Source: a bacterium SCSIO 12643
GTDB taxonomy: Bacteria; Bacteroidota; Bacteroidia; Flavobacteriales_G; Salibacteraceae
Assembly (NCBI GenBank): GCA_024398135.1
Contig: CP073750.1
Span: 310,001-374,000 of the forward strand
Reading direction: 5' to 3'
DNA length: 64,000 nucleotides
In this document: in pieces, positions 8,166 to 48,157 of the stretch
Layout of the letters: the number at the start of each line of letters is the position of its first letter
Position numbering within the stretch: the first letter of the stretch is position 1
Program-made: the position numbers and the translations under genes
The notes under the pieces: model-generated
Databases searched by the model: none
What the model saw: only the letters and a program-made list of their open reading frames with translations
Told to the model about the DNA's origin: nothing

Positions 8166-9017
8166 ATGAATAAGAAAATCACTTCAGAAGAATTTCTCGG
8201 TATTAATTCAAAGGAAGAATTAATGGATTTGATCCACAAAAAGAAGATCGATATATCCAAAATTGAAAACACTATTGCGTACGAGCAAGAGTTACGTGCT
8301 TTGCAAATTGAATTGGTAAAGCTGCAGCAGTGGATTGTGAAAACGAAAAAGAAAGTGGTGATCATTTTTGAGGGTCGGGATGCAGCCGGAAAAGGAGGTT
8401 CTATCAGACGTTTTGTAGAGCATATGAATCCTCGTTCTATGCGCGTGGTAGCATTAGCTAAACCCACCGAAAAAGAGCGGGGTCAATGGTATTTCAGACG
8501 CTATGTTAAAGAATTACCTCAGCCAGGAGAAATTGTATTCTTTGACAGAAGCTGGTACAATCGAGCGGTGGTGGAGCCGGTAATGGGGTTTTGCAATACA
8601 CATCAGTACAATACTTTCTTGATGCAGGTTCCTGAATTTGAGCAAATGCTTTACGAGGAAGGTGTGATCATGATTAAATTCTGGTTCTCTATAGATAAAG
8701 AAGTACAGTTGGCCAGATTGGAGTCTAGAAAAACTGATCCGCTTAAAATATGGAAGATTAGTCCGGTAGATGAACTAGGACAAGAGTTATGGGATAAGTA
8801 CACCCACTACAAAGATGAGATGTTCAGTAAAACGCATACAATGGTTTCTCCATGGATTATCATCAAGGCCAATACCAAAAAAATTGCGCGACTGGAATCT
8901 ATCAAATACGTACTTTCTAAGTTTGAATACGAAGGAAAAGAAGATGCCAATATCGTATTGGCTCCTGATCCGAATATCGTAATGAGGTATCAACGTTCAC
9001 TATACCTAACAGATTAA
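8166..9017 (+). CDS. ppk2: Polyphosphate kinase 2 family protein (first copy)
   Basis: This 283-residue PPK2 enzyme has a Walker A loop EGRDAAGKGG (residues 69-78), a lid region with the RxxRRY-type run GQWYFRRYV, and a Walker B-like motif DRSWYNRA (127-134) followed by VVEPVMGFC. A helical extension of about 60 residues precedes the nucleotide-binding core. PPK2 enzymes transfer phosphate between polyphosphate and nucleoside mono- or diphosphates; the preferred direction and nucleotide cannot be read from sequence by eye. It is followed by a paralogue after 4 bp, so the two are surely cotranscribed and may form hetero-oligomers. Confidence 0.93.
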   Translation: MNKKITSEEFLGINSKEELMDLIHKKKIDISKIENTIAYEQELRALQIELVKLQQWIVKTKKKVVIIFEGRDAAGKGGSIRRFVEHMNPRSMRVVALAKPTEKERGQWYFRRYVKELPQPGEIVFFDRSWYNRAVVEPVMGFCNTHQYNTFLMQVPEFEQMLYEEGVIMIKFWFSIDKEVQLARLESRKTDPLKIWKISPVDELGQELWDKYTHYKDEMFSKTHTMVSPWIIIKANTKKIARLESIKYVLSKFEYEGKEDANIVLAPDPNIVMRYQRSLYLTD

Positions 9018-9021
9018 TACA

Positions 9022-9810
9022 ATGGAATTAAACGAAAAAGAGGCCAAACTTTTAAGTTCTAAAAAGGGCCTGAAAATATTGCTTTCGCAAAATGAACTTA
9101 ATCTGGAACGTGGTTTACGTAATGTAAAATACGAGAAGGAATTGGTGAAACTGCAAGTGGAATTATTAAAACTCCAACGTTGGGTTCGTGATCATAAAAA
9201 ACGCGTGATTATCATTTTTGAAGGGAGAGATTCTGCCGGAAAAGGTGGGGCGATCAGAAGGATTACGCAATATCTAAATCCTCGATTACTTCGTATCGTA
9301 GCATTACCTAAGCCCACTAAAGAAGAAACAGAGCAATGGTATTTTCAACGCTATGTCTATCATTTTCCTAAGTATGGTGAAATTCTATTTCTGGATCGTA
9401 GTTGGTATAACCGTGCAGTTGTAGAACCTGTAAACGGATTTTGTACGCAAGAACAATACGAGCAATTTATGGGCGAAGTCAACAACTTTGAAAAAATGCT
9501 GGTTTCAGAAGATTCTATTTTGATTAAGCTCTATTTCTCTATCTCAAAAGATGAACAGCTTAAACGTTTTACCAGTATTCTGGAAAACCCATTAAAGAAA
9601 TGGAAATACAGCGAGGTAGATAGTAAAGCTCAGGAACTTTGGGATGAATACACCAGGTATAAAAAAGAAATGTTCCTAAAAACAAATACAGAACATGCAC
9701 CCTGGAAAATTATCAAAGCCAATAAAAAAGGATTGGCACGTTTGGAGGTTATCAAATATATTCTGGGAAAAATACCTTATCAGGAAGACGAACCTCAGGA
9801 GGAAGAATGA
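9022..9810 (+). CDS. ppk2: Polyphosphate kinase 2 family protein (second copy)
   Basis: This 262-residue paralogue of the preceding gene has Walker A EGRDSAGKGG (residues 67-76) and DRSWYNRA (125-132), also followed by VVEP. It keeps all core motifs but differs across the lid (EQWYFQRYVYHF) and C-terminus, which ends in an acidic tail (EDEPQEEE). Both copies look active. Its 3' end overlaps the 3' end of the convergent receiver gene by 16 bp, with no terminator between them. Confidence 0.93.
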   Translation: MELNEKEAKLLSSKKGLKILLSQNELNLERGLRNVKYEKELVKLQVELLKLQRWVRDHKKRVIIIFEGRDSAGKGGAIRRITQYLNPRLLRIVALPKPTKEETEQWYFQRYVYHFPKYGEILFLDRSWYNRAVVEPVNGFCTQEQYEQFMGEVNNFEKMLVSEDSILIKLYFSISKDEQLKRFTSILENPLKKWKYSEVDSKAQELWDEYTRYKKEMFLKTNTEHAPWKIIKANKKGLARLEVIKYILGKIPYQEDEPQEEE

Positions 9811-10217
9811 CATTGAGGTAATCCATTGATCACCTGATTTATGGTATCAACAGTTAAGGGCTTTCCAATAAAACCTTTAATCAGATCAGATTTCTTTACT
9901 TTTTTCAAATCTAAATCATCAATAGTAGCAGAAAGTAAATAAAAAATGGTGTTCTTTTTATCGTATTTGGATATTTGATCAAATATTTCCTGTGATAACT
10001 TAAAACCATTACCATCAGGCATATAGATATCTATAAAAAAAACTACATCGTTTGATGCAAAATAATCTTCATCAGAGCGCACCCATGATACGACCTCACA
10101 AAATGAAGAAAAGGTCTTCACCGTAATGTTAGAATCAACTCTTGATATCAAACGTTTACCAATCATTAAGTCTATTTCATTATCGTCTACAACTACTATG
10201 TTTACATCATTCTTCAC
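9795..10217 (-). CDS. Single-domain response regulator (receiver only)
   Basis: This 140-residue protein is a receiver domain with no output domain: acidic DDNE at 11-14, phosphoacceptor D63 in FFIDIYMPDGNG, S96 in LLSATIDD, and K119 in FIGKP. Such CheY-like proteins pass phosphate or act by protein contact. It overlaps the upstream receiver-kinase gene by 11 bp and is last in the minus-strand signalling operon. It belongs to a different receiver subgroup from the two YVDDE-type receivers in the same island. Confidence 0.9.
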   Translation of the reverse strand: MKNDVNIVVVDDNEIDLMIGKRLISRVDSNITVKTFSSFCEVVSWVRSDEDYFASNDVVFFIDIYMPDGNGFKLSQEIFDQISKYDKKNTIFYLLSATIDDLDLKKVKKSDLIKGFIGKPLTVDTINQVINGLPQCHSSS

Positions 10218-11316
10218 CTTTTCCGGGTATATTCATAATAATTTCAGTTCCTTTACCAAATGTAGACTTTAAATCTATATTACCACCTAATTTTTCAATA
10301 GCTTCTTTAACAATAAATAAACCTAAACCTGATCCTTTATCGTCTACTTTTTCCCGGTAGTACATATTAAAGACTTCATCTACTTTGTTTTCTTTAATAC
10401 CGATACCATTATCAATAACACGTATCAAAGCATTTCCATTTTTAACTGTTGCTTTGATATCTACCCATTTATTGGCCTCTTCTTCTCTTTGATATTTAAA
10501 CGCATTTGAGATTAAATTACTCAATATCGTTTTAATATTCATATGGTTAGATACAAATGATCCTTCTTGAACAACATTCACATTAAATCTCACGTCCTGC
10601 GCTTCTGGGTGGAACTTAATGCTTTCGATAATTTCATTTATTAATTCTTTAAAATCTATTTGATCCGAAAAATCACTTCCGTGAGTTCCTTTATAATGAT
10701 CGATAATTTGATGAATATATCCATCTAGTTTATCTACCATTCCTTTAATAGATTTAAAATATTCCAGGGCTTTTTCGTCTTCAACATCCAACTCTGCCAA
10801 ATTCGCGATTCCCAAAATCGACATCAAAGGTGATCTTAAATCATGCGATACGCTATAGACAAACTTGTCCAGCTCATTATAGGCTACCTGTAACGATTCA
10901 TTCTTGGAACTTAACGCTTTTCTGGTATCATACAATTCTATGGCATCATGCAGCGCCATTCTTACACGATCGGTATCCCAGGGTTTATCAATAAACCTGT
11001 ATACCTGACCCTTATTAATCGCATCTACAACTGCATTAATATCAGAGTAACCAGTGAGAATTATCCTCACCTTATTCGGATATATATGTCTGACCTTTTC
11101 AAAAAACTCAACTCCGGTAATGTCCGGCATACGCTGGTCAGAAATAATTACTTTAATGTTGGGGTGCTTTTTAAGCTGTTTCAGTGCTTCAACAGCATTA
11201 ATAGCAGTGTACACATGCAATTCTCTTCTGAATGCAGCTCTGAAAGAATTTAAATTATTCTGTTCATCGTCCACATAGAGAACTGCCCCATCATGCTCTT
11301 TTTCCAGTTTAATCAT
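10207..11316 (-). CDS. Receiver-histidine kinase fusion
   Basis: This 369-residue soluble protein has an N-terminal receiver (YVDDEQNNL at 14-22, phosphoacceptor D60 in IISDQRMPD, K111 in IDKPW), a short coiled linker (125-150), a HisKA-type helix with KFVYSVSHDLRSPL (H158), and a HATPase_c domain (N box NLISNAFKYQ, G1 DNGIGIKE, G2 GSGLGLFIVKEA). With no membrane segment, it should take input by phosphorylation of the receiver and then signal through its own kinase. It overlaps its neighbours by 8 and 11 bp, so translation is probably coupled. Its receiver is closely similar to the free regulator encoded divergently at 15593-16081. Confidence 0.93.
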   Translation of the reverse strand: MIKLEKEHDGAVLYVDDEQNNLNSFRAAFRRELHVYTAINAVEALKQLKKHPNIKVIISDQRMPDITGVEFFEKVRHIYPNKVRIILTGYSDINAVVDAINKGQVYRFIDKPWDTDRVRMALHDAIELYDTRKALSSKNESLQVAYNELDKFVYSVSHDLRSPLMSILGIANLAELDVEDEKALEYFKSIKGMVDKLDGYIHQIIDHYKGTHGSDFSDQIDFKELINEIIESIKFHPEAQDVRFNVNVVQEGSFVSNHMNIKTILSNLISNAFKYQREEEANKWVDIKATVKNGNALIRVIDNGIGIKENKVDEVFNMYYREKVDDKGSGLGLFIVKEAIEKLGGNIDLKSTFGKGTEIIMNIPGKGEE

Positions 11317-13480
11317 CGCTCAGTGGTTTAGTGGTGTTTGTTATAGGTAGTGTGATTATGAATTCTGTTCCTTCATCTATCTCTGATTTTACATCTATTT
11401 TTCCATTAATTTTTTCAACTATCTTATAAACTATGGATAATCCCAGACCTGTTCCCTCTCCTACTGGTTTGGTGGTAAAGAAAGGTTCAAACAACTTGTT
11501 TTGAACTTCCTCTGTCATACCCGGCCCATTATCCGCTATAGAAATATATACGTGACCCTCATCGTGAGAAGTTGAGATCACAATTTCTCCTTCCAACGTT
11601 TTCTCATCGCTTTTAATAGCTTGAATCGCGTTATTCAAAATATTCATGAATACCTGATTCATTTTTCCGCCATAACACTCTACGTTTGGAATATTGCTAA
11701 AGTTCGTTTTTACTTTTAAATGATGCTTAATATTACTATTAAGTAATACTAAAGTTGACTTGATTCCATCTTCCAGATTTACCATTTTCAAATCATCTTC
11801 ATCTACTCTGGAGAATAATTTCAAACCTTTAATGATCTCAACAGTTCTATTCGCTCCATCCTTCATGCCATGTAAAAGATGATTAATTTCTTCTTTCACA
11901 TAGTCATATTCTATTTCTTCCTTAAGATCTATAATTTCCTGATACATTTCCGGGCTCATAGATTCTTTGGCTAATTTTTCGGTCGCTTCAAAAACACTCA
12001 CGATATCCTCCACATCTCTTTTCAATGGTCCTACGTTAGAGCTCACAAAGTTAATCGGATTGTTAATTTCATGTGCTATCCCTGCAGTCAATTGTCCCAA
12101 AGACGACATTTTTTCTGCATTAACCAGCTGCGATTGCGTATTCTTTAATTCGGAGTATGCTTTTTCTACTTCGTGATTCTTTTCCTCAAGAACTTTATTG
12201 GTTTCATTCAACTCTTTGGTTCTCGCATTAACCTTTTTCTCCAGGATGATATTCTGTTCAAATATCAGTGTTGCTTTTTCCTTCTCTAATCTTAATGACA
12301 AGCTTACGGCTTCTTCTTGTTCACTCTTCAGAATATTAATTCTATTTGCCAGTGCAAAAGAAAGTAATACAACTTCCAGTCCGGCTCCAAATGTAATCGT
12401 GAGCGTAGTGATATTGTTTCTTTCAATCACACCTACTTCAGCCATTACAAAAACCAGAATTCCCAACAAGAAGGTCGACCATGCCAATAAATAATACTTT
12501 GCAGGTTTATAACCACTCATCATTACCACAATGGCAACTGAGAGTATAAACAATGCGATGATCGGTTGAAAAGCAAGTAATAGTGCATTTACTATGGTTA
12601 CATCAAACCATACCAACACTACTAATACTGAATAAATAACCAGGAAAATTTTCGATACGATATTTAGTCTTGGAGCATGTTCAGCCGTTTTCAAAAATGC
12701 ATTCATGAATATTAAACCTCCCATTGTAGCTACAGCGGTTAGCAATTCACTACCTATATTCTGGAAAAATATATTCTCCGGCCATAAATACTGATATGAT
12801 ACCCCATAGAGTACCATTTGCAAAATTCCGGTTAAAAATGATAAAATCACATAGATTAAATACATGGTTTCCCTCAGCGAAACATATAAAAACAGATTAT
12901 AGCCTACCATGGCAAATATGACTCCAATCAGAACCGCAAATATCACGATTGCAGTGGTTTCATATTGCATCACAGCATTATGCTCCCCCACAATTATATT
13001 GTAAGTAGTTTGTACTTTATTTCTTAATCTCACATAAAATACCGTTTGCTCTTTCGAAACATCTATGTCAAAAACAAAATGATTGACTTTGTACTTACGA
13101 TGATTGAACGGGTAATCATTTCCGTAATTGATGACACGCCAACTCCCATCCGCATTTCTCTGATAAAAATCAATGGTATCCATATTGGCCTGATCCATTA
13201 AAAACACCAGTTCATGCATCTTATCCAGATCGACATTCATGTCCACCTTGATCCAGGTATTGTAGGTATTGAATATCTCAGATCTGTTTTCCTTAGTCTT
13301 TCTAGTGAAATTCGCATTTTCAATTTCATCAATAGACAATTGATATGTTGAATCCACATAGAATTCAAAATCTTGAAGATTATAGACCTTATCAGGATTG
13401 TCAATATAATTCACCTCCTGTGCACTTACTATCGTAGTGACAAATACCAAGCAAAGCCATATGTATTTTAAATAATGCAT
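11309..13480 (-). CDS. 7TMR-DISM sensor histidine kinase
   Basis: This is a 723-residue membrane kinase. It has a signal peptide (1-21), a periplasmic 7TMR-DISM extracellular domain (about 25-165), seven transmembrane helices (about 175-385), and a long coiled coil (390-455). It ends in a HisKA domain with GQLTAGIAHEINNPINF (H470) and a HATPase_c domain (NILNNAIQAI, DNGPGM, FEPFFTTKPVGEGTGLGLS). 7TMR-DISM proteins are thought to sense extracytoplasmic small molecules or carbohydrates. Here the receptor lies 13 bp downstream of a GNAT-fold gene and upstream of a receiver-kinase and a receiver, so the operon reads as an enzyme, a receptor and a relay. The ligand is unknown. Confidence 0.95.
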   Translation of the reverse strand: MHYLKYIWLCLVFVTTIVSAQEVNYIDNPDKVYNLQDFEFYVDSTYQLSIDEIENANFTRKTKENRSEIFNTYNTWIKVDMNVDLDKMHELVFLMDQANMDTIDFYQRNADGSWRVINYGNDYPFNHRKYKVNHFVFDIDVSKEQTVFYVRLRNKVQTTYNIIVGEHNAVMQYETTAIVIFAVLIGVIFAMVGYNLFLYVSLRETMYLIYVILSFLTGILQMVLYGVSYQYLWPENIFFQNIGSELLTAVATMGGLIFMNAFLKTAEHAPRLNIVSKIFLVIYSVLVVLVWFDVTIVNALLLAFQPIIALFILSVAIVVMMSGYKPAKYYLLAWSTFLLGILVFVMAEVGVIERNNITTLTITFGAGLEVVLLSFALANRINILKSEQEEAVSLSLRLEKEKATLIFEQNIILEKKVNARTKELNETNKVLEEKNHEVEKAYSELKNTQSQLVNAEKMSSLGQLTAGIAHEINNPINFVSSNVGPLKRDVEDIVSVFEATEKLAKESMSPEMYQEIIDLKEEIEYDYVKEEINHLLHGMKDGANRTVEIIKGLKLFSRVDEDDLKMVNLEDGIKSTLVLLNSNIKHHLKVKTNFSNIPNVECYGGKMNQVFMNILNNAIQAIKSDEKTLEGEIVISTSHDEGHVYISIADNGPGMTEEVQNKLFEPFFTTKPVGEGTGLGLSIVYKIVEKINGKIDVKSEIDEGTEFIITLPITNTTKPLSDD

Positions 13481-13493
13481 CCCAATCTTCTTT

Positions 13494-14180
13494 TTATGGT
13501 AGCTTCAATCGGTATTCCAATTCAAACTCACCTTTTGGCCATGTTTCGGTCGTTCTAAAATTTAATAGCTCTCTTAACTTAAATATTTCAGACCGCTCCT
13601 TTTCAGTAGCCAAATGTAATTCCATTGGATCATAACAAACCACTGCCGTAGCAATTAAATCCAATTTCGGATAATTAAATTCGCCCTGATTTCCTACCAC
13701 GGTAAATGGCTCAAACCCTTTTTCGTATCCTCGCTGTCTTGTTGCCCTTGAAGCAAACGATAACATGGTATCCAATCCAACTTGAGGAGCTAAAGCAATA
13801 GACGACCGCATCAAATAAATGGCACCTAATCCCAGTCCCATAATTTTACGGCTATTCCAAATGCCACAAATTTCCGCAGTTCCAGCATCCATGAGTTTAT
13901 CGATTTCCTCGTAAATACGCGTGTCAACTTTAGCAATAGCCTCCACCATTGGTAGAACGGTCACACGATTTGCAACATGCAATCGTACTCCCCCAACAAT
14001 CTCATTGTCATTAGCAGTATCTTCTACTACCATAACATAAACATTGGGATCGTCTATCCAATCGTTTTTACCCGATGTTACTTTGACACCTATATCTTCC
14101 AGTACCTTTCTATGACCAACCGCAAATCTTTCACCTGCATCTTGATCGTCTGGTGCTTTAAAAGCGCGTATCCTTAACAT
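13494..14180 (-). CDS. GNAT-like N-acyltransferase, LuxI-like motif layout
   Basis: This 228-residue soluble protein has no signal peptide. It begins MLRIRAFKAPDD and has a beta-hairpin ending in IVGGVRLHV (62-69), then TAEICGIWNSRKIMG (101-115), then a helical stretch, then FEPFTVVGNQ and ATAVVCYDPMEL. The order resembles GNAT-fold acyltransferases, in particular autoinducer synthases, where a G-G-x-R-L strand is followed by a (W)E-x-x-R-F strand; E103 and R111 sit in comparable places. The resemblance is by eye and low in identity, so an acyl-homoserine lactone product must not be assumed. Context strengthens a signal-making role: the next gene is a 7TMR-DISM receptor kinase. Confidence 0.55.
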   Translation of the reverse strand: MLRIRAFKAPDDQDAGERFAVGHRKVLEDIGVKVTSGKNDWIDDPNVYVMVVEDTANDNEIVGGVRLHVANRVTVLPMVEAIAKVDTRIYEEIDKLMDAGTAEICGIWNSRKIMGLGLGAIYLMRSSIALAPQVGLDTMLSFASRATRQRGYEKGFEPFTVVGNQGEFNYPKLDLIATAVVCYDPMELHLATEKERSEIFKLRELLNFRTTETWPKGEFELEYRLKLP

Positions 14181-14308
14181 CGGTTATGTCTTAAATATTT
14201 AATCATTTGATGTTCGGGATATCGACAACTGGAATTAAAAACCTAAAATCCATGACGAATCTTTTTATTCTAATAACGTATATTTTTCATTATAAATCTA
14301 ACATATTT

Positions 14309-15409
14309 TTATGATTTGTTCTTAATAATACTTTCAATATCAACATAATACCTACCTGAATCTTGAAATTGATCTAACAAAATTCTTCTTGAAACATCAG
14401 CTCCAACAGCACCTCCTAAAATGACAGAAGTTGCTAATTGCGGCCAGGTAGTTATTGTCTTTTTTACTTCTGCCAATGAAGACTTGGCCCGATCAGATAA
14501 TTTCTCAAAATCCAGGATTTTAAGAACTACCGGAATTTTTTCTTCATTGGTAAGACCTTTTAATGTTTGACTATCGATACCATCTAATCTTCCATGTAAA
14601 ATCGGACGATCAGGTGTTAAATCAAATCTTTCCACATCAATCATTCCTCTATCAGAGGTATCCATGATTACCGGGATTCTATGTTCTTTTGCAAATTCAC
14701 GGGCATATATCTTCATATCTAACCCATCGCATTCATCCACAAATAGATCTAGCTTCCCATCGGAAAACATAAAGTCTTCAATATTTTCTTCGGTAATACC
14801 TTCTTTGTAAATCTTGACTTTTACAAATGGGTCTATTTCAGCAATCTCTCTTGCTGTAGCCACTACTTTATGTGTCCCAAGATTATATAAAGGTGTCCGA
14901 ATTCTGTTCAAATTAGAAAGTTCTAAATGATCAAAATCGGCCAGACGGAGTTCACCACAGCCTCTTTCCATGACTAATGTCAATGCGATAGACTGTCCGA
15001 CACTAAGCCCCATGATACCGATTTTCTTCTTAGAAAGTTCCCTTTGCTCAGCAGTTGTAATTTTATTACAATTCCTATTGGTACGAAGCGCAATAAATTC
15101 ATCTTCGTCCAATATATGTACTACCTTACATAGCCATGGATAATATACCCATACACCATATTCGTCTTTGCTCTTAGATCCAAATACTGATTTAACTTTC
15201 GATTCCAGATTTTCTGTCTCCAAACCTTCAGGATGCCGTGATTTAATAAGCTCCCTGACTTGTGCATCAATTTCATCAGTTATCGAAATATGGGGATTTT
15301 GCGACAACAACGTATGTAATGATAGTTTTGAAGAAGAATCACTTAACCGGAAGAAATCAGGATGAATCACATCATGCTGATTATCAACGCGTTTAAAATT
15401 ATCACTCAT
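14309..15409 (-). CDS. ThiF/E1-like adenylating protein (Rv1355c-like)
   Basis: This 366-residue protein has an N-terminal helical region (1-120) and an E1/MoeB/ThiF-type Rossmann domain: nucleotide loop GIMGLSVGQS (131-140), the Asp-Asn-Arg motif DFDHLELSNLNRI (158-170), and THKVVATAREIAEIDP. These residues bind ATP and adenylate a C-terminal carboxylate. No CxxC zinc pairs are present. C225 in VDECDG is a possible thiol but lies where relatives carry DxxD-type metal-site residues. The layout matches the N-terminal half of Rv1355c-family proteins, which in other species carry an additional nitroreductase-like domain; that half is absent. It precedes the GNAT gene by 128 bp on the same strand. 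The substrate is unknown. Confidence 0.75.
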   Translation of the reverse strand: MSDNFKRVDNQHDVIHPDFFRLSDSSSKLSLHTLLSQNPHISITDEIDAQVRELIKSRHPEGLETENLESKVKSVFGSKSKDEYGVWVYYPWLCKVVHILDEDEFIALRTNRNCNKITTAEQRELSKKKIGIMGLSVGQSIALTLVMERGCGELRLADFDHLELSNLNRIRTPLYNLGTHKVVATAREIAEIDPFVKVKIYKEGITEENIEDFMFSDGKLDLFVDECDGLDMKIYAREFAKEHRIPVIMDTSDRGMIDVERFDLTPDRPILHGRLDGIDSQTLKGLTNEEKIPVVLKILDFEKLSDRAKSSLAEVKKTITTWPQLATSVILGGAVGADVSRRILLDQFQDSGRYYVDIESIIKNKS

Positions 15410-15440
15410 TATTTTTATTAAGTAAATTCATCTATAAATC

Positions 15441-15448
15441 CAAAAGTA
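15441..15448 (-). promoter_or_regulatory. Bacteroidota -7 box before the ThiF-like gene
   Basis: On the minus strand this reads TACTTTTG, an exact TAnnTTTG match 31 bp before the start codon. It lies in the 183 bp divergent region shared with the response regulator at 15593. Confidence 0.45.
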
Positions 15449-15592
15449 TAATAAAAAGCTATCGGCATATGGGGCTGATTATCAATCCTGATTCAAATCC
15501 TATCTCTAAAAATTAAATTATTAATATTTCGTCAAAAGGTTTAAAAGAATTAGGTTATTTTCGAGCCTATAATCCCCATAATACCAATTTTT

Positions 15593-16081
15593 ATGTCAGA
15601 AAATCAAAACAAATCAGCTAAATCCGATCGAATGCAGCTTCTGTATGTTGACGATGAGGTGAATAACCTAATTAGTTTTAAGGCAGCATTTAGAAGGGAT
15701 TATAAAATTTTCACTGCAGAATCCGGCTCAGAAGGACGCAAAATACTAGAACAAAATAATATCTCGATCGTTATTACCGATCAACGTATGCCTTTCATGA
15801 CCGGTGTAGAGTTTTTAGAATCTATCGTAAACGATTACCCAGAAACCATCAGAATATTAATTACTGGTTTTTCAGATATCCAGGCTGTAATTGACGCTAT
15901 TAATAAAGGTAGAATTTACCACTATGTTCAAAAACCATGGGATGAAACATATCTAAGAAACATTATTAATAATGCATTCGAAACACATAGACTTAGAAGA
16001 GAAAATAAATTTATGATGGAACAACTCAAGCTTTCAAACGAGCAATTAGAGTTTCTGCTCCGTCAGGAAATGTTATCATAA
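15593..16081 (+). CDS. Response regulator, receiver only with coiled tail
   Basis: This 162-residue protein has a receiver domain (YVDDEVNNL at 18-26, phosphoacceptor D63 in VITDQRMPF, T91, K114 in VQKPW) and a helical tail of about 35 residues (MMEQLKLSNEQLEFLLRQ) likely to form a coiled coil. It shares long identical stretches with the receiver of the kinase fusion at 10207-11316, for example SDIxAVxDAINKG and TDQRMP versus SDQRMP. It is transcribed divergently from the ThiF-like gene. It probably exchanges phosphate with the kinases of this island; that is inference. Confidence 0.9.
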   Translation: MSENQNKSAKSDRMQLLYVDDEVNNLISFKAAFRRDYKIFTAESGSEGRKILEQNNISIVITDQRMPFMTGVEFLESIVNDYPETIRILITGFSDIQAVIDAINKGRIYHYVQKPWDETYLRNIINNAFETHRLRRENKFMMEQLKLSNEQLEFLLRQEMLS

Positions 16082-16116
16082 AAAAAGGGTTCGTATTAAA
16101 TACGAACCCTTTTTTT
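16081..16116. terminator. Bidirectional intrinsic terminator
   Basis: The 9-bp stem GGGTTCGTA/TACGAACCC with loop TTAAA is flanked by A6 before and T8 after. It separates the convergent response regulator and DUF3108-like genes. Confidence 0.93.
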
Positions 16117-16134
16117 ATGATTTGATTTGGTTCT

Positions 16135-26145: not shown

Positions 26146-26266
26146 ATTGATTTATTTCAAGGTTTAAACATTTTCCAAGTTTCTACAATTTCCCCTCCAG
26201 GGATGAGAAATTTGTGCTTTGGTAATTATTATTACTTTTATCGCATACAATTTAAATAAAGCAAAT

Positions 26267-26755
26267 ATGAAATTAAAATCTCTCTCGCTACTATTATTAA
26301 GTTCTGTATTTACCGTTTTTACAGTTTTAACCAGTTGTAACTCTTCTGCTGAAAATGATACTTCAAAAGCCAACGTAGAGCAAACTGCAAACGAAGATGA
26401 TTCTGAAACATCTAAAAAAGAATGTAAAAAAGGTGATGCGGAGTGCAAGAAGAAATGCAAAAAAGACAGTAAGTGCAAAAAAGATAAAGAATGTAAGAAG
26501 GATGGCAAATGTGAGAAAAAATGTGTTTCGACTTGCAAAGAAAAATGTAAAGGTGAATGTGGTAAGGGCGATTCTAAGTGTGATGAAGAATGTCAAAAAG
26601 CATGCGCAGAAAAATGTAAAAAAGAATGCTCTAAATCTGACTCAGCAGGTGTAGATCATAAATGTGGTGAAGGCAAGTGTGGCGAAGGTAAATGTGGTGA
26701 TAGCACACAAACTGAAGAACACAAATGTGGAGAGGGAAAATGTGGGGAACAATAA
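26267..26755 (+). CDS. Cysteine- and lysine-rich lipoprotein
   Basis: This 162-residue protein starts at the ATG at 26267, which opens a lipoprotein signal (lipobox LTSC, Cys at residue 24); an upstream in-frame TTG extends it without sense. The mature chain holds 20 further Cys spaced by 3-6 residues among Lys, Glu and Asp (KKECKKGDAECKKKCKKD). It ends with repeats of the form CGEGKCGEGKCG and HKCGEGKCG. The density suggests metal chelation, as in metallothionein-like or HvfA/bufferin-type proteins, whose EGKCGEGKCG repeats look alike. No DUF692 (HvfB) or HvfC gene is adjacent. It is predicted to be lipid-anchored in the envelope. Function is inferred only from composition. Confidence 0.8.
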   Translation: MKLKSLSLLLLSSVFTVFTVLTSCNSSAENDTSKANVEQTANEDDSETSKKECKKGDAECKKKCKKDSKCKKDKECKKDGKCEKKCVSTCKEKCKGECGKGDSKCDEECQKACAEKCKKECSKSDSAGVDHKCGEGKCGEGKCGDSTQTEEHKCGEGKCGEQ

Positions 26756-26777
26756 AACTTAAAAACTCTCATTTTTT

Positions 26778-26809
26778 AAAGGCCTTTTGAAATTCAAAAG
26801 GCCTTTTTT
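26778..26809 (+). terminator. Intrinsic terminator after the cysteine-rich lipoprotein
   Basis: The stem GGCCTTTTGAA/TTCAAAAGGCC is followed by T6 and lies 25 bp past the stop codon. It separates the two cysteine-rich genes into different transcripts. Confidence 0.92.
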
Positions 26810-26953
26810 ATTGACATCTACCTAAATATGAAAATCAGACTGAATGTAATGCCGAGAAACTTTCTTTCATTAACAAATAATTAGCTTCTTTTTTATCTTC
26901 TAAAAACCCTAAAACTCCTATATTTACTGGCTATAACACAAAAAACATTTTAT

Positions 26954-27256
26954 ATGAAAATCAACTTTTTATCTATTGTAGCTCTATTCTTATTTACACT
27001 GACCACAGTCACTATTCATGTAAATGCCAATACCTTACAATCCACCTCTATTTCTATTATTGATCACGATGGAGATTGTGATAAATGTAAAGATGGAAAA
27101 TGCGATGGCAAGTGTACCAAAAAGGAAGGTGAAAAAAAGTGCAGCGATGACTGTAAAAAAGAAGGGAAATGCACCAAAAAATCAGAAAGCGAAAAGAAAT
27201 CTGGATGCGCTGAAAAGAAATCCTGTGGAAATAAAAAAGGATGCGGTAAACACTAA
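26954..27256 (+). CDS. Small secreted cysteine-rich protein
   Basis: This 100-residue protein has a cleavable signal peptide (1-25, ending VNANT). The mature chain has 10 Cys in pairs (CDKCKDGKCDGKC, KKCSDDC, SCGNKKGCGKH) among Lys, Asp and Glu. It is a shorter, non-lipidated relative in style of the lipoprotein 200 bp upstream and probably binds soft or divalent metals, with a His near the C-terminus. It has its own terminator. No metal-responsive site was recognised before it; a TATATTTA hexamer-like box 30 bp upstream is one base off the usual -7 form. Confidence 0.75.
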   Translation: MKINFLSIVALFLFTLTTVTIHVNANTLQSTSISIIDHDGDCDKCKDGKCDGKCTKKEGEKKCSDDCKKEGKCTKKSESEKKSGCAEKKSCGNKKGCGKH

Positions 27257-42780: not shown

Positions 42781-43683
42781 TTACTCCACGACCATCTTCC
42801 CTCTCTGATCCCCTATCACATACATATATACCCCGGATTCCAGCGTTTCAATATTGATCTCCGATTCCGGTGGATAAATCATTTGATGTAGTACCAATTG
42901 TCCGGTGATGGAATAAATCTTTAATTCTTGGGCGTCTCGAATATTAGGATCTAAAAATTGAATTCGGATGGTTTCTTGAGCCGGGTTTGGGGATATTCCT
43001 AACTTCTCTGAACTAACATCTAAACGCTTAACCGAATTTATAACAGCACAATTTGTATCGCAAGTAATTACTGAATAAATTACATTTCCATTCTGGACAA
43101 CACAATTTAGGCTTTCACTGCTTTCAAATGGACAATAAAAAGATCCTAATGGCCCAAAATTACTACCAATACCCTCAATATGATATAGATATACATCTTG
43201 CCATTCTATACAACTATCTAATAATAAACGTTTTCTGGGTATTCCGTCTATATCTATTGTATCTATACTCTTTACAGTTCTAAAGTTGTTATAAATAGGA
43301 TGTTTTAGAGTATCACCAATATTTAAGCTAAAGTCATACCACACCCTATCATCATTCCAATCGTTCATCCTTAAATAGACCTTTCTTTCAGTACTATCAT
43401 TCCTGAAATAACCAATTTGTTCTTGAACAAAATATGGAGTCGAATTAAAAATACCTCCCCATTCCCAAGGATAGATTAAACTCCGTTCCATAAGTTTATG
43501 ATATACCTTACCACTAATAACTGTATCACTATCAACTATAATTTCATATTTACGCCAATAACCTTCATGATTGGTTTCAAATCCTTTCCACCTCATATGC
43601 TTAGTAGGAAAAGGAACATACGATTGTGAATTTCCAATCTGAAATATTCCAAATAAAATCACTATTAAGTATAAAGTTCTCAT
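42781..43683 (-). CDS. T9SS cargo protein, type A paralogue 1
   Basis: This 300-residue protein has a signal peptide (1-19, ending GNSQ) and a type A N-terminal domain. That domain reads YVPFPTKHMRWKGFE, then YHKLMERS, VWYDFSLNIGDTL, IEGIGSNFGPLGSFYC and SLNCVVQNGNVIYSV. A 70-residue T9SS type A sorting domain follows (ISPNPAQETIRIQFLDPN, then ELKIYSITGQLVLHQMIY, ESGVYMYVIGD). It is last in the eight-gene minus-strand operon, 20 bp after a type B gene. Its closest relative is the type A paralogue at 46359-47270, including the spacer before it. It is predicted to be secreted by T9SS; its role is unknown. Confidence 0.85.
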   Translation of the reverse strand: MRTLYLIVILFGIFQIGNSQSYVPFPTKHMRWKGFETNHEGYWRKYEIIVDSDTVISGKVYHKLMERSLIYPWEWGGIFNSTPYFVQEQIGYFRNDSTERKVYLRMNDWNDDRVWYDFSLNIGDTLKHPIYNNFRTVKSIDTIDIDGIPRKRLLLDSCIEWQDVYLYHIEGIGSNFGPLGSFYCPFESSESLNCVVQNGNVIYSVITCDTNCAVINSVKRLDVSSEKLGISPNPAQETIRIQFLDPNIRDAQELKIYSITGQLVLHQMIYPPESEINIETLESGVYMYVIGDQRGKMVVE

Positions 43684-43703
43684 AGGCTTTTTATTTAATT
43701 ATA

Positions 43704-44513
43704 TCACTCCACCACCATCTTCCCTCTATAATCCCCTATCACATACATATACACACCAGATTCCAATGTTTCAATATTAATCTCCGATTCCGGTGGATAA
43801 ATCATTTGATGCAGCACCAATTGTCCGGTAATGGAATAAATCTTTAGTTCCTGGGAATCTCGTATATTGGGGTCTAAAAATTGAATTCGAATGGTTTCTT
43901 GTGCTGGGTTTGGGGTTATTTTAACTTTTGTTTCTTTATTATTCTCATAAACGCTTTGTGGAAAATCAAACATATAAATATCATCAATTATCCATCCATC
44001 TCTTCCTTCTGAAACACTATCACTATAGATGGTGAACTTAAATAACAAACTATCAGAATTTCCCCAACTTGCGCCAAAGGTAAAACCTTGCCAATTTGAG
44101 CTATGACCTTTAAACTGACCATCGTCAATTATCTGCCAAGTAATTCCCTTATCTCTAGAATATTGTATTTCTCCAAAATCATTTACCGAATCCATATCGA
44201 CCATGTACACAAAATTTAGTTCAGGCCATTCCCAAGAACTATTAAGTTTAGGAAACCATAAATAAAATGTAGAAGTATCATTTACAGAGTACGGATTTAT
44301 AGTATCAGTAACAATCGCGTTTGGCTGAGTTGTAGAACTAGTAAAATTCGATTTTTGTGGCTTCCCAATCTGCCAGATATTATTTGGATTAGATACTGTA
44401 TCTATCGTAATCAGATCCAAATTATTAGTATCATCAAAGCTTATTCTAATGGCTGATTGACTAAATACCTCTAAAGGGAATAAACAAATAGTAAGTAAAT
44501 ATTTCAAATTCAT
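43704..44513 (-). CDS. T9SS cargo protein, type B paralogue 1
   Basis: This 269-residue protein has a signal peptide (1-18, ending VFSQS) and a type B domain. That domain reads SFDDTNNLDLITIDTVSNPN, WQIGKPQK, PNAIVTD, EIQYSRDKGITWQ, LLFKFTIYSDS and GWIIDDIYMFD. The GWxIDDI ending and strand order suggest a jelly-roll (MAM/concanavalin-like) module, often carbohydrate- or protein-binding. The sorting domain is nearly identical to that of its five neighbours. It has a 17 bp gap to the preceding gene and 20 bp to the next. Confidence 0.83.
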   Translation of the reverse strand: MNLKYLLTICLFPLEVFSQSAIRISFDDTNNLDLITIDTVSNPNNIWQIGKPQKSNFTSSTTQPNAIVTDTINPYSVNDTSTFYLWFPKLNSSWEWPELNFVYMVDMDSVNDFGEIQYSRDKGITWQIIDDGQFKGHSSNWQGFTFGASWGNSDSLLFKFTIYSDSVSEGRDGWIIDDIYMFDFPQSVYENNKETKVKITPNPAQETIRIQFLDPNIRDSQELKIYSITGQLVLHQMIYPPESEINIETLESGVYMYVIGDYRGKMVVE

Positions 44514-44530
44514 CCTATTTAAGTCTTTAA

Positions 44531-45463
44531 TTATTCAATAACAATCTTCCCTCTATAATCCCCTATCACATACATATACACTCCCGATTCCAGTGTTTTA
44601 ATATTGATCTCCGATTCCGGTGGATGAATTATTTGATATAACACTAATTGTCCGGTGATAGAATAGATTTTCAATTCTTGTGAGTCTCGAATATTAGGGT
44701 CTAAAAATTGAAGTCGGATGGTTTCTTGCGCTGGGTTTGGGGATATATTGATTACGGTTTCATTTGCAAGCTCATTAACATTATTAAAAATATCCATTTT
44801 AATACATAGGTTATCAATTTGCCATCCTTCATGTCTGCCTATACTATCAGCCACAAAACTGAATTTCAACAAAATACTATCCTCTTTGAAAAGAGAATCA
44901 CCAAAAACAAGCTGTTCAATATTCTTTGAAATTTTTGAATGTACCCAACCATTTGAGTTTCCTGTAACTGATAAACTATCAAAGATTGTATCATTAAGGC
45001 CAAAAAAATAGTGGTAATTTTCATAATCCCCCCAGGTATAATTATATGTACTGGACAAAACATCATACCAGGTGTTTCCTCCGTTAAATGACATTTCAAT
45101 AGTTCCGTAATCATAAATTGAGTCTGTATCAAATCGATGTATCAATTCAATCTCCAAAGGATAAAATAGTCCTAGATAATTGGGTATCCACCCATGATAC
45201 GAATACGAAGCATAAAATATTGAAGTATCCTTGTTAGGATATAACGAATCCAAATCCGTAACGATCGAATTTAAACCTGAATAAGAACTATCAAACTCAG
45301 ATTTATTTGGTTTGCCAATTTCCCAAATTCCACTACTATCTATGTTTATTAAAACAACATTTGAATCAAAAGAATTACAGATTGAAAATGAATCAATCTG
45401 AGAGTAAGAATTCACCTGGACTATTATTAGATTTAAAAAAATAAGTAGTTTCAAATATTTCAT
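44531..45463 (-). CDS. T9SS cargo protein, type B paralogue 2 (divergent)
   Basis: This 310-residue protein has a signal peptide (1-21, ending VNSYSQ). It is the most divergent type B member: SICNSFDSNVVLINIDSSG replaces the usual start, but WEIGKPNKSEFDSSYSGLNSIVTDLDSLYPNKDTSIFYASYSY, GTIEMSFNGGNTWYDV and GWQIDNLCIKM keep the jelly-roll pattern. The sorting domain has three or four substitutions (IRLQFLD, LYQIIHPPE, IKTLESG) against the others, so it is older or has escaped homogenisation. It has 16 bp and 17 bp spacers. Confidence 0.82.
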   Translation of the reverse strand: MKYLKLLIFLNLIIVQVNSYSQIDSFSICNSFDSNVVLINIDSSGIWEIGKPNKSEFDSSYSGLNSIVTDLDSLYPNKDTSIFYASYSYHGWIPNYLGLFYPLEIELIHRFDTDSIYDYGTIEMSFNGGNTWYDVLSSTYNYTWGDYENYHYFFGLNDTIFDSLSVTGNSNGWVHSKISKNIEQLVFGDSLFKEDSILLKFSFVADSIGRHEGWQIDNLCIKMDIFNNVNELANETVINISPNPAQETIRLQFLDPNIRDSQELKIYSITGQLVLYQIIHPPESEINIKTLESGVYMYVIGDYRGKIVIE

Positions 45464-45479
45464 CTTGTTAAGTTTTTAG

Positions 45480-46340
45480 TTACTCCACGACCATCTTCCC
45501 TCTCTGATCCCCTATGGTATACATATACACTCCGGGTTCCAGCGTTTCAATATTGATCTCCGATTTCGGTGGATTAATCATTTGATGAATCACCAATTGT
45601 CCGGTTATAGAATAAATCTTTAATTCTTGGGCGTCTCGAATATTGGGGTCTAAAAATTGAATTCGAATGGTTTCTTGAGCTGGGTTAGGGTTAATATTGA
45701 TTTTTAACTCAATATTCTTCTCTACTATGTTTGATATATAATCATACATCTTTATATCATCTATTATCCATCCATCCTTAACATCGGGAATATTGTCAGA
45801 GTAAAAAATAAATTTAAATAGAATACTATCAGTATAACCATAATTATCATCCCAATTACCAAACCCTATAAACATATCCGTCCAATGTAAATTTCTTCCT
45901 GTAAAAGGGTTATTTCGATTACAATTACAATTTACCGAAATACCAGGATTGTTATCTTCAACCTTAAACCAAGTACTTCCTTTATCTGGAGAAAATTGAA
46001 TCTCTCCATAATCATTTAACGAGTCAGTATCAGTTTTAAATTTAAATTCTAAAGTAGGCCACCACCCAGGTTCTTTATGTTCAGTATACCACAAATAAAA
46101 TACAGATGTGTCGTTAATTGGATAAGGATTTATTGTATCAGTAACCATGACGTTTGGATCAGAATAAGCACTGTTAAAAGAGCCTTTTTGAGGTTTCCCA
46201 ATCTGCCATATATTATTGGGATTAGATAAGGTATCTATGATAATCAAATCCAAATTACTGGTATCGTCAAAAGAGATTACTTCTTGCCCCAAAGTCCCAA
46301 AAGGGAGTAGACAAAAAAACAATATATATTTAAAATCCAT
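45480..46340 (-). CDS. T9SS cargo protein, type B paralogue 3
   Basis: This 286-residue protein has a signal peptide (1-18, ending TLGQ) and a full type B domain: SFDDTSNLDLIIIDTLSNPNN, WQIGKPQKGSFNSAYSDPN, EIQFSPDKGSTWFKVEDNN, CNCNRNNPFTGRNLHW, LLFKFIFYSDN and GWIIDDIKMYD. It is closest to the type B member at 47291-48157, which shares the insert with Cys near residue 145 and the GxWDDxxGYTDSILFKF run. The sorting domain differs from the majority form at only a few residues (HQMINPPKSE, LEPGVYMYTIGD). Confidence 0.83.
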   Translation of the reverse strand: MDFKYILFFCLLPFGTLGQEVISFDDTSNLDLIIIDTLSNPNNIWQIGKPQKGSFNSAYSDPNVMVTDTINPYPINDTSVFYLWYTEHKEPGWWPTLEFKFKTDTDSLNDYGEIQFSPDKGSTWFKVEDNNPGISVNCNCNRNNPFTGRNLHWTDMFIGFGNWDDNYGYTDSILFKFIFYSDNIPDVKDGWIIDDIKMYDYISNIVEKNIELKININPNPAQETIRIQFLDPNIRDAQELKIYSITGQLVIHQMINPPKSEINIETLEPGVYMYTIGDQRGKMVVE

Positions 46341-46358
46341 CTCTTGTTAAGTTTAAAG

Positions 46359-47270
46359 TTACTCCACCACCATCTTCCCTTTCTGATCACCTATCGTATA
46401 CATATACACTCCAGATTCCAGCGTTTCAATATTGATCTCCGATTCCGGTGGACGAATCATTTGATGAAATACCAATTGTCCGGTGATGGAATAAATCTTT
46501 AGTTCTTGTGAAGCACGAATATTAGGGTCTAAAAATTGAATTCGGATGGTTTCTTGAGCAGGGTTTGGGGATATTCCTAACTTTCCTGAACTACTATCTA
46601 AATGCTCAACCGAATTTATTATTGAACAGGCAGAATCTAAAGCGAATAAATAATAGATTACACTACCATTTTGCTCCACACATTTTAATATTTCAGAATC
46701 CTCGTAAGCACAATCATACGAAGCGAATGGTCCGAAAGTACTCCCAATGCCTTCTATAAAATATAAATTAGCCAATAAATTAGTTGAATCACCGCATTCG
46801 GCTAATAACAATCTTCTTCTCGCTAACCCGTCAATATTAATTGTATCTATATCAATTACAGATTTATATGATACCGGATGAAAAGGATTAACCATAGTAT
46901 CTCCAATATTTAAACTGAAATCATACCAAATTTCCTCTTTATTCCATCCTTCAGCTAATAAGTAAATCTTTTTATTTATGCTATCATTCCGAAAAACACC
47001 CATATATTTTTGAGAAAATACTGGAGGTTTATATGTTAAACCTCCCTGAGCATAATACGTCCAACTTTTTTCGATAAGCTTATGATATGTTATCCCCCCA
47101 ATAATTGTGTCTCCGTCAATAATAACATCATAAAACTTCCTAGAGTTCGGATAATACATATATTCCATTCCTTTCCACCTCATATTTTCGGTTGGAAACG
47201 GAACATAAGTTTGAGCGTTTCCTATCTCAAATATTCCAACTAAAATCACTATTAAGTATAAAGTTCTCAT
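46359..47270 (-). CDS. T9SS cargo protein, type A paralogue 2
   Basis: This 303-residue protein has a signal peptide (1-19, ending GNAQ) and a type A domain: YVPFPTENMRWKGMEYMYYPN, then YHKLIEKSW, EEIWYDFSLNIGDTM, FIEGIGSTFGPFASYDC and LKCVEQNGSVIYYLF. A T9SS type A sorting domain follows (IRASQELKIYSITGQLVFHQMI). The first residues are almost identical to those of the type A copy at 42781-43683 (MRTLYLIVILxGIF). The 20 bp spacer before the gene differs by one base from the one before that copy. Confidence 0.85.
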   Translation of the reverse strand: MRTLYLIVILVGIFEIGNAQTYVPFPTENMRWKGMEYMYYPNSRKFYDVIIDGDTIIGGITYHKLIEKSWTYYAQGGLTYKPPVFSQKYMGVFRNDSINKKIYLLAEGWNKEEIWYDFSLNIGDTMVNPFHPVSYKSVIDIDTINIDGLARRRLLLAECGDSTNLLANLYFIEGIGSTFGPFASYDCAYEDSEILKCVEQNGSVIYYLFALDSACSIINSVEHLDSSSGKLGISPNPAQETIRIQFLDPNIRASQELKIYSITGQLVFHQMIRPPESEINIETLESGVYMYTIGDQKGKMVVE

Positions 47271-47290
47271 AGGCTTTTTGTTTAATTATA

Positions 47291-48157
47291 TCACTCCACG
47301 ACCATCTTCCCTCTCTGATCCCCTACGATATACATATATACTCCGGATTCCAACATTTCAATATTGATCTCCGATTCCGGTGGGTAAGTCATTTGATGAA
47401 GTACCAATTGTCCGGTGATGGAATAAATCTTTAATTCTTGGGCGTCTCGAATATTGGGGTCTAAAAATTGAATTCGGATGGTTTCTTGTGCTGGGTTTGG
47501 GGTTATATTAATCTGGGAGACATTGTTACTCTCCTGAACGTCCATATAATAATCGTAGGTAAAAATATTATCTATCATCCAACCTTCACGATCATTATGA
47601 ATACCATCACTATAGAACGTAAATTTGAATAAAATACTATCTGTATATCCAAAATAATCATCCCAACCAACAAAGGCTATTCCGAAATCTAACCAATCAG
47701 AACCACTATTTCCAGTAAATAAATCTTTACAACTACTACACCTTAAGTTATATGGTAAATTGGTATCAGCTAAAGAATACCAAGAAACTCCCTTATCAGT
47801 TGAAAATTCAATTTTACCAAAGTCATATAATGAATCTGAATCAATTTTATAATTGAACAATAAAGCTGGCCAATTATATGGAGTAAGATGATTTGTATGC
47901 CATAAATAAAAAGATGATGTATCATTAATTGGATACGTATTGACCGTATCTGTAATTATCGCATTGGGACTGGTCTGAGCACTATCAAATAGCACTTTTT
48001 GAGGTTTCCCAATCTGCCAGATATTATTGGGATTAGATAGTGTATCTATTATAATCAGATCCAAATAATTGCTGTCTTCAAAGTTTATTGGAGAAGTCCA
48101 TTGTCCCATTAACCATACTGGGCACAAACAAAAAATAAATAAATATCTTAAATTCAT
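47291..48157 (-). CDS. T9SS cargo protein, type B paralogue 4
   Basis: This 288-residue protein has a signal peptide (1-18, ending LMGQ) and a type B jelly-roll-like domain: NFEDSNYLDLIIIDTLSNPN, WQIGKPQKVLFDSAQTSPN, KIEFSTDKGVSWYSLADTN, DDYFGYTDSILFKFTFYSDG and GWMIDNIFTYD. The sorting domain is of the homogenised kind (IRDAQELKIYSITGQLVLHQM). It is the first of the six short paralogues, 16 bp after the 512-residue propeller-like gene. It forms, with the next type A gene, one of the two duplicated B-A units. Confidence 0.84.
   Translation of the reverse strand: MNLRYLFIFCLCPVWLMGQWTSPINFEDSNYLDLIIIDTLSNPNNIWQIGKPQKVLFDSAQTSPNAIITDTVNTYPINDTSSFYLWHTNHLTPYNWPALLFNYKIDSDSLYDFGKIEFSTDKGVSWYSLADTNLPYNLRCSSCKDLFTGNSGSDWLDFGIAFVGWDDYFGYTDSILFKFTFYSDGIHNDREGWMIDNIFTYDYYMDVQESNNVSQINITPNPAQETIRIQFLDPNIRDAQELKIYSITGQLVLHQMTYPPESEINIEMLESGVYMYIVGDQRGKMVVE

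Follow-up and report, generated by a model that had tools for sequence, protein, structure and literature searches.

A 64,000-nucleotide stretch of the genome of bacterium SCSIO 12643 (contig CP073750.1, positions 310,001 to 374,000; hereafter the window, to which coordinates refer unless another locus is named) contains a compact six-gene cassette that resembles a unit for cell-to-cell signalling in Bacteroidota not described before, in which two enzymes predicted to make a small acylated amino-acid molecule lie beside the receptor that most likely detects it. With a probability of about 0.74, we judge that the cassette both produces and detects a small molecule of its own and is a synthase-receptor system of the autoinducer or quorum-sensing type. 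Our argument is built on the gene content, the folds and families of the proteins, their conserved catalytic and phosphotransfer residues, the conservation of the cassette and the linked replacement of enzyme and sensor: the enzymes and the sensing half of the receptor change together in evolution, against otherwise constant machinery. From these observations we infer the substrate and the product, its export and its binding as a ligand, the direction of phosphotransfer and the output. The features of the locus are as follows.

9795-10217, minus strand: small free receiver (Pfam Response_reg)
10207-11316, minus strand: receiver-HisKA-HATPase fusion (Pfam Response_reg, HisKA and HATPase_c)
11309-13480, minus strand: sensor histidine kinase of the 7TMR-DISM type, predicted to detect the product as its receptor (Pfam 7TMR-DISM_7TM, 7TMR-DISMED2, HisKA and HATPase_c)
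12341-12943, minus strand: seven-transmembrane (7TM) region of the 7TMR-DISM kinase, residues 180-380 (Pfam)
13010-13375, minus strand: DISMED2 extracytoplasmic domain of the 7TMR-DISM kinase, residues 36-157 (Pfam)
13494-14180, minus strand: FeeM/LuxI-fold N-acyltransferase (GNAT-like), predicted signal synthase (AlphaFold2 model)
14309-15409, minus strand: stand-alone ThiF-type adenylating cyclase of the Rv1355c/TrzS family (NCBIfam NF005901)
15410-15592: 183-bp divergent intergenic region, where the operon and the free receiver are presumed, from position only, to have their promoters
15593-16081, plus strand: free receiver that ends in a short C-terminal tail and lacks a DNA-binding domain (Pfam Response_reg)
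16075-16121: strong bidirectional terminator-like hairpin of 20 pairs, bounding the right side of the cassette

Coordinates re-derived from the open reading frames (ORFs) of the window agree with the first-pass annotation of this DNA in its six genes, their overlaps (11 and 8 bp) and their gaps (13, 128 and 183 bp). The domain calls of that annotation hold by Pfam for every protein except the GNAT, which matches no family in Pfam or NCBIfam, yet its AlphaFold2 model has the GNAT fold. The 7TMR-DISM kinase is the only 7TMR-DISM protein in the 4.1-Mb genome. Because of this, and because the arrangement recurs in about 100 other loci, its occurrence here is more than chance.

We collected related loci by searching for the GNAT. 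Relatives were present in 26 of 100 related genomes and in 15 of 392 sampled throughout the phylum, where one of the 15 is a weak fragment; from a named genome collection (Algoriphagus, Pedobacter, Sphingobacterium, Mucilaginibacter, Arachidicoccus and others) the best 80 of 347 matches were taken, and these 80 loci are biased toward sequences like the window GNAT. Removal of duplicates left 107 loci, in which genes were called with a simple ORF script. As the loci were picked by the GNAT alone, and a few by ThiF, the identity of the other neighbours is an unselected result. The 7TMR-DISM kinase lies just downstream of the synthase in 103 of the 107 loci, the contig ending too early in the other four, so that the co-occurrence set beforehand as a test of the first-pass annotation was found wherever there was enough contig to see it. 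At least 94 loci have a recognisable receiver-kinase fusion and at least 96 an oppositely oriented free receiver, divergent or convergent to the operon, and the small free receiver is recognisable in 42. Synthase, 7TMR-DISM kinase, receiver-kinase and divergent receiver are thus a conserved cassette across Bacteroidota.

The position beside the GNAT is variable. This enzyme slot holds ThiF alone in 41 loci, ThiF fused to an oxidase, as in TrzS and OxzB, in 45, a class I S-adenosylmethionine (SAM) methyltransferase in 15, a membrane methyltransferase of the isoprenylcysteine carboxyl methyltransferase (ICMT) family in two and an FAD-linked oxidase in one; no enzyme was recognised in the slot of the remaining three, one of which ends with its contig. 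We suggest that ThiF and both kinds of methyltransferase share one logical job, to remove the carboxylate charge of an N-acyl amino acid, either by closing a ring or by forming a methyl ester. The ICMT-family protein, which replaces ThiF between synthase and kinase at 8702-9343 of locus L182 and 10261-10902 of L183, would be an independent solution for capping the carboxylate. The FAD-linked oxidase (FAD_binding_4; 8219-9925 of L126) sits in a cassette whose nearest relative by kinase domain (82%) has ThiF-oxidase, and the 7TM regions of these two are only 49% identical. In Parafilimonas terrae (8348-13125 of L133) no tailoring enzyme can be recognised in the locus, which comprises only receiver, synthase, kinase and receiver-kinase, and the signal may be an uncapped N-acyl amino acid.

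To follow enzyme type through the rest of the cassette we used trees built on 82 complete cassettes. Label-shuffle tests are not tree-aware, and we relied instead on parsimony counts and approximately unbiased (AU) tests. The distinction between methyltransferase and ThiF requires one change on the 7TM tree and three on the DISMED2 tree, against ten on the kinase-domain tree, 12 on that of the receiver-kinase, nine on that of the free receiver and 11 on that of the GNAT. A single methyltransferase clade is rejected by the AU test for the kinase domain (p = 3e-96), the receiver-kinase (1e-43), the free receiver (2e-37) and the GNAT (3e-6). In the 7TM tree the methyltransferase cassettes already form one clade, with support in the Shimodaira-Hasegawa-like approximate likelihood ratio test (SH-aLRT) of 83; a second alignment, to which one more methyltransferase row was added, gave 88.

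Comparison of close relatives gives plain, direct cases. Sphingobacterium paucimobilis (methyltransferase) and S. faecale (ThiF) carry the cassette at the same genomic site, where flanking genes are mostly 97-100% identical. The GNAT (87%), kinase domain (90%), fusion (92%) and free receiver (90%) are similar in the two species, but the slot enzymes differ and identity falls to 19% in DISMED2 and 33% in the 7TM region. Enzyme and sensor half have here been replaced in place. In Algoriphagus, where the genes run ThiF-oxidase, GNAT, kinase, identity is low in two strains for the GNAT (46-47%), 7TM (35-36%) and DISMED2 (14-16%), against 87-89% for the kinase domain and 90-91% for the free receiver. 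Across 16 Algoriphagus strains the partial correlation between GNAT and 7TM divergence, after removal of kinase and fusion divergence, is 0.97 (0.96 with one of the two odd strains left out), and that between ThiF and 7TM divergence is 0.10; receiver controls are near 0. The distances from slot to GNAT, from slot to sensor and from sensor to kinase domain are similar, at about 1 kb. The association has nonetheless been broken about ten times on either side, that is, at the sensor/kinase border within the kinase gene and between GNAT and slot, and almost never between slot and sensor. This asymmetry of breakpoints suggests that selection keeps enzyme and sensor matched.

The ThiF protein (Pfam ThiF, E = 1.4e-20) scores 487.3 bits against NF005901, the Rv1355c family model, for which the cut-off is 476, covering profile positions 5-341 of 722. 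It is 43-44% identical to actinobacterial Rv1355c-family and ThiF proteins, with which it shares an E-C-D motif (Asp228) and a G-L-S-V-G nucleotide loop, both invariant across 66 relatives. From the motif, Asp228 probably equates to the adenylation-motif aspartate D217 of TrzS. The match ends at position 341, leaving out the C-terminal flavin-dependent oxidase half, and by its curated score the protein is a member of the Rv1355c/TrzS family minus the oxidase. As expected of a neighbour of an Rv1355c/TrzS protein, an N-acyltransferase-type gene (the GNAT at 13494-14180) adjoins it. TrzS (Rv1355c) carries out ATP-dependent cyclisation of an N-acyl tryptophan, made by the acyltransferase TrzA (Rv1356c), and then desaturation by its fused flavin oxidase to give tryptazolone (PMC12856293); tyrazolones are made in the same manner by OxzAB and TyzACB (PMC10404671). 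The window ThiF is accordingly a candidate for adenylating the carboxylate of an N-acyl amino acid and closing an oxazolone ring. No oxidase gene was found beside it, and candidates elsewhere in the genome were limited to three ordinary nitroreductases of about 215 residues, none of Rv1355c type. Because the ThiF lacks the oxidase half and only these short nitroreductases occur elsewhere in the genome, the predicted product is a saturated oxazolone.

A housekeeping identity for ThiF was rejected, its scores being far below the cut-offs of the ThiS-, MoeB- and TcdA-type models, as was membership of an anti-phage E1 system, for which PADLOC gave a match to the generic E1 fold only. The resemblance of ThiF and GNAT is to the N-acyl amino acid and oxazolone pathway (PMC12856293) and not to housekeeping ThiF or MoeB. 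Another pair of ThiF and acyltransferase lies on a Streptomyces plasmid (NZ_CP109451.1; 5929-7727 of L162), where a stand-alone ThiF, 44% identical to that of the window and likewise without an oxidase, overlaps a different GNAT (Acetyltransf_3) and is preceded by a MerR regulator. On two Rhodococcus plasmids (3708-7956 of L163 and 2877-7022 of L192) a GGDEF-domain gene lies near Rv1355c-family genes; cyclic di-GMP genes flank trzAS in Mycobacterium tuberculosis.

The AlphaFold2 model of the GNAT, built from the window protein and 36 relatives, has a mean predicted local distance difference test score (pLDDT) of 91.2 and a predicted template modelling score (pTM) of 0.88. Its best match in the Protein Data Bank (PDB) is FeeM (2g0b; Z 17.6, 173 residues, root-mean-square deviation 2.6), followed by the N-acyl homoserine lactone (AHL) synthases RpaI, LasI and BjaI at Z of about 15, interspersed with plain GNATs, of which 1xeb, for example, reaches Z 16.3. 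Identity to FeeM and to LuxI-type synthases is about 9-14%, and a profile search for a sequence link to solved acyltransferases gave nothing significant. FeeM is an N-acyl amino acid synthase, and FeeM and BjaI were reported as the nearest folds of TyzA (PMC10404671). On the strength of the model, the GNAT is predicted to be a signal synthase that would join an acyl group from acyl-CoA or acyl-ACP to an amino acid to give an N-acyl amino acid. It did not align with two uncharacterised plasmid neighbours of Rv1355c-family genes, which are possibly not TrzA, and no relatives of it were found on plasmids.

The window kinase matches 7TMR-DISM_7TM at 1.2e-40 and 7TMR-DISMED2 at 2.1e-20. All 82 cassettes have intact phospho-accepting histidine and aspartate residues, in the two kinases as well as in the receiver of the fusion and the free one, and in these cassettes His470, the N-box Asn617 and Asp650 of the 7TMR-DISM kinase, Asp60, Lys111 and His158 of the fusion, and Asp63, Thr91 and Lys114 of the divergent free receiver are invariant. 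DISMED2 is the fastest-diverging part of the cassette. By Pfam, no receiver of the window cassette has a DNA-binding domain.

These observations suggest a route from synthesis to output. The FeeM/LuxI-fold GNAT would join an acyl chain to an amino acid, and ThiF would adenylate the free carboxylate and close a 5(4H)-oxazolone, which should stay saturated without the oxidase half. The neutral, lactone-like product would then leave the cell and bind to the DISMED2/7TM half of the 7TMR-DISM kinase. The kinase would signal via the receiver-kinase fusion and the free receivers, devoid of DNA binding, to an output whose genes lie outside the cassette. Where other species have a methyltransferase instead of ThiF, a methyl ester is the expected product, and the receptor has a sensor half that changes along with the enzyme. 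We think it fairly probable that this amounts to a phylum-wide form of quorum sensing in Bacteroidota with modular chemistry, in which one FeeM-fold scaffold receives variable caps, the matching 7TMR-DISM sensor half is swapped along and communication groups arise between close relatives. The predicted caps are an oxazolone, a dehydro-oxazolone, a methyl ester (from two unrelated methyltransferases) and an oxidised form.

Several points weigh against an autoinducer system. The cassette is described here from its genes and a predicted structure, and no sequence link from the GNAT to a characterised acyltransferase of the oxazolone pathway emerged from a comparison that covered uncharacterised neighbours only. 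Support for the 7TM grouping of the methyltransferase class is moderate (SH-aLRT 83-88). The distinction between ThiF and ThiF-oxidase tracks the sensor hardly better than it does the kinase. Within the ThiF class, ThiF divergence correlates only weakly with the sensor (partial r 0.07), and the pairing claim therefore rests on enzyme type and the GNAT. The enzyme slot also adjoins the sensor, so linkage helps their joint movement, and one recombination tract can carry both.

That adjacency would suffice if the two-component proteins sensed the state of the envelope or nutrients and switched on an N-acyl amino acid or oxazolone lipid pathway as their output, with enzyme and sensor moving together merely as neighbours. 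The physiological role of N-acyl oxazolones has been called a major unresolved question (PMC12856293), and stress or envelope roles have been proposed (PMC12856293, PMC10404671), which would suit such an arrangement. We nevertheless consider it unlikely, since linkage alone does not predict that breakpoints should almost never fall between slot and sensor when the distances are similar, and direct control of the operon is not obvious for receivers without a DNA-binding domain. N-acyl tyrosines such as the stieleriacines have antimicrobial activity (PMC12856293) and rapid switching of type fits antagonism too, so the product could be mainly antimicrobial and the kinase could read it for autoinduction or self-protection. 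The lack of any resistance or export gene conserved beside the cassette, where 7 of 27 lineage groups is the most in which any outside neighbour is found, makes this distinctly improbable. Least credible, with next to no chance of being right, is an E1-like role for ThiF that has nothing to do with the kinases, either with a ubiquitin-like or sulfur-carrier protein as its substrate or as part of an anti-phage E1 system. PADLOC and the ThiF, MoeB and TcdA models do return generic E1-fold matches, but the scores against those three models are far below the cut-offs and the Rv1355c model is above its own, the cassette ORFs include no ubiquitin-like gene, and the slot is exchangeable with methyltransferases. 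The suggestion of the first-pass annotation, a self-contained system perhaps making and sensing its own molecule, is thus supported by the co-occurrence, by the enzyme families and by a sensor half that tracks enzyme type, and its chemistry and sensing are our reading of these.

The surroundings of the cassette appear to be separate from it. On the left, tandem PPK2 polyphosphate kinase genes (8166-9810) converge with the small receiver, overlapping it by 16 bp; we place this pair outside because the two closest relatives (L052 and L053) are the only others to have it next to the cassette. The PPK2 pair, a DUF3108 gene on the right and other neighbours were considered as members and rejected by the same measure of recurrence across lineage groups, and the commonest outside neighbours resemble housekeeping genes. 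An rpoN (sigma-54)-like gene lies within about six genes of the synthase in eight loci, including L057, from seven lineage groups, which may be simple synteny. Elsewhere in the window, 42781-48157 encodes related secreted proteins in tandem, whose near-identical C-terminal domains resemble type IX secretion signals, and 26219-27256 holds two small cysteine- and lysine-rich ORFs with N-terminal signal-like segments. No RNA families or tRNAs were found in the window.

To our knowledge, no small-molecule synthase-receptor pair native to Bacteroidota is established, and the ligands of 7TMR-DISM receptors are mostly unknown. A literature search, outside which most subscription papers lay, found no such pair and no account of the cassette, of oxazolone signalling via a kinase or of a synthase that has a 7TMR-DISM kinase as its partner. 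If the autoinducer reading is true, one cassette bears on a signalling pair of Bacteroidota, on the role of oxazolones and on the ligands of 7TMR-DISM receptors, in cultured and tractable genera (Sphingobacterium, Pedobacter and Algoriphagus). There would then be a class of endogenous ligands for 7TMR-DISM kinases and a part in signalling for oxazolone lipids, and the in-place swaps of enzyme and sensor would be natural matched pairs for the study of signal specificity.

Among known systems, TrzAS (Rv1356c/Rv1355c; N-acyl tryptazolone), TyzACB (tyrazolone) and OxzAB (Pseudoalteromonas rubra) resemble the cassette in having an acyltransferase beside a ThiF cyclase of the same family. The window ThiF differs in having no oxidase, the window acyltransferase matches no family in Pfam or NCBIfam, and no adjacent 7TMR-DISM kinase relay, such as the cassette has, is reported at those loci. 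The predicted synthase shares its fold with FeeM and the LuxI-type AHL synthases. With no Autoind_synth Pfam match and no LuxR-type or DNA-binding receptor, the cassette is not a LuxI/LuxR system.

In layout the cassette can be likened to phcBSRQ of Ralstonia, which also comprises a synthase, a sensor histidine kinase, a receiver-kinase and a free receiver in a relay without DNA-binding domains. PhcR is a receiver-kinase and PhcQ a receiver without a DNA-binding site, layouts shared by the window fusion and the divergent free receiver, respectively. PhcB is, however, a methyltransferase acting on a 3-hydroxy fatty acid, whereas the window has a FeeM-fold synthase with ThiF and a 7TMR-DISM receptor; because the synthase differs, the cassette is not a Phc system. 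In Ralstonia, PhcB and PhcS are reported to sort by type of signal, but PhcR and PhcQ by phylotype (PMC8578825). The synthase and sensor thus track the signal and the relay tracks the species, the same pattern as that of the enzyme and sensor half of the cassette against the rest. At the ComQXPA and agr pherotype loci of Gram-positive bacteria, too, the signal-making genes vary together with the sensor half of the kinase, and the kinase half and regulator are conserved. PMC4408185 covers ComQXPA pherotypes. The signals of those loci are peptides and none of their proteins is related to those of the cassette. Signal and receptor types of quorum sensing show such joint change of enzyme and sensor, and we read the cassette as a probable system of the quorum-sensing type.

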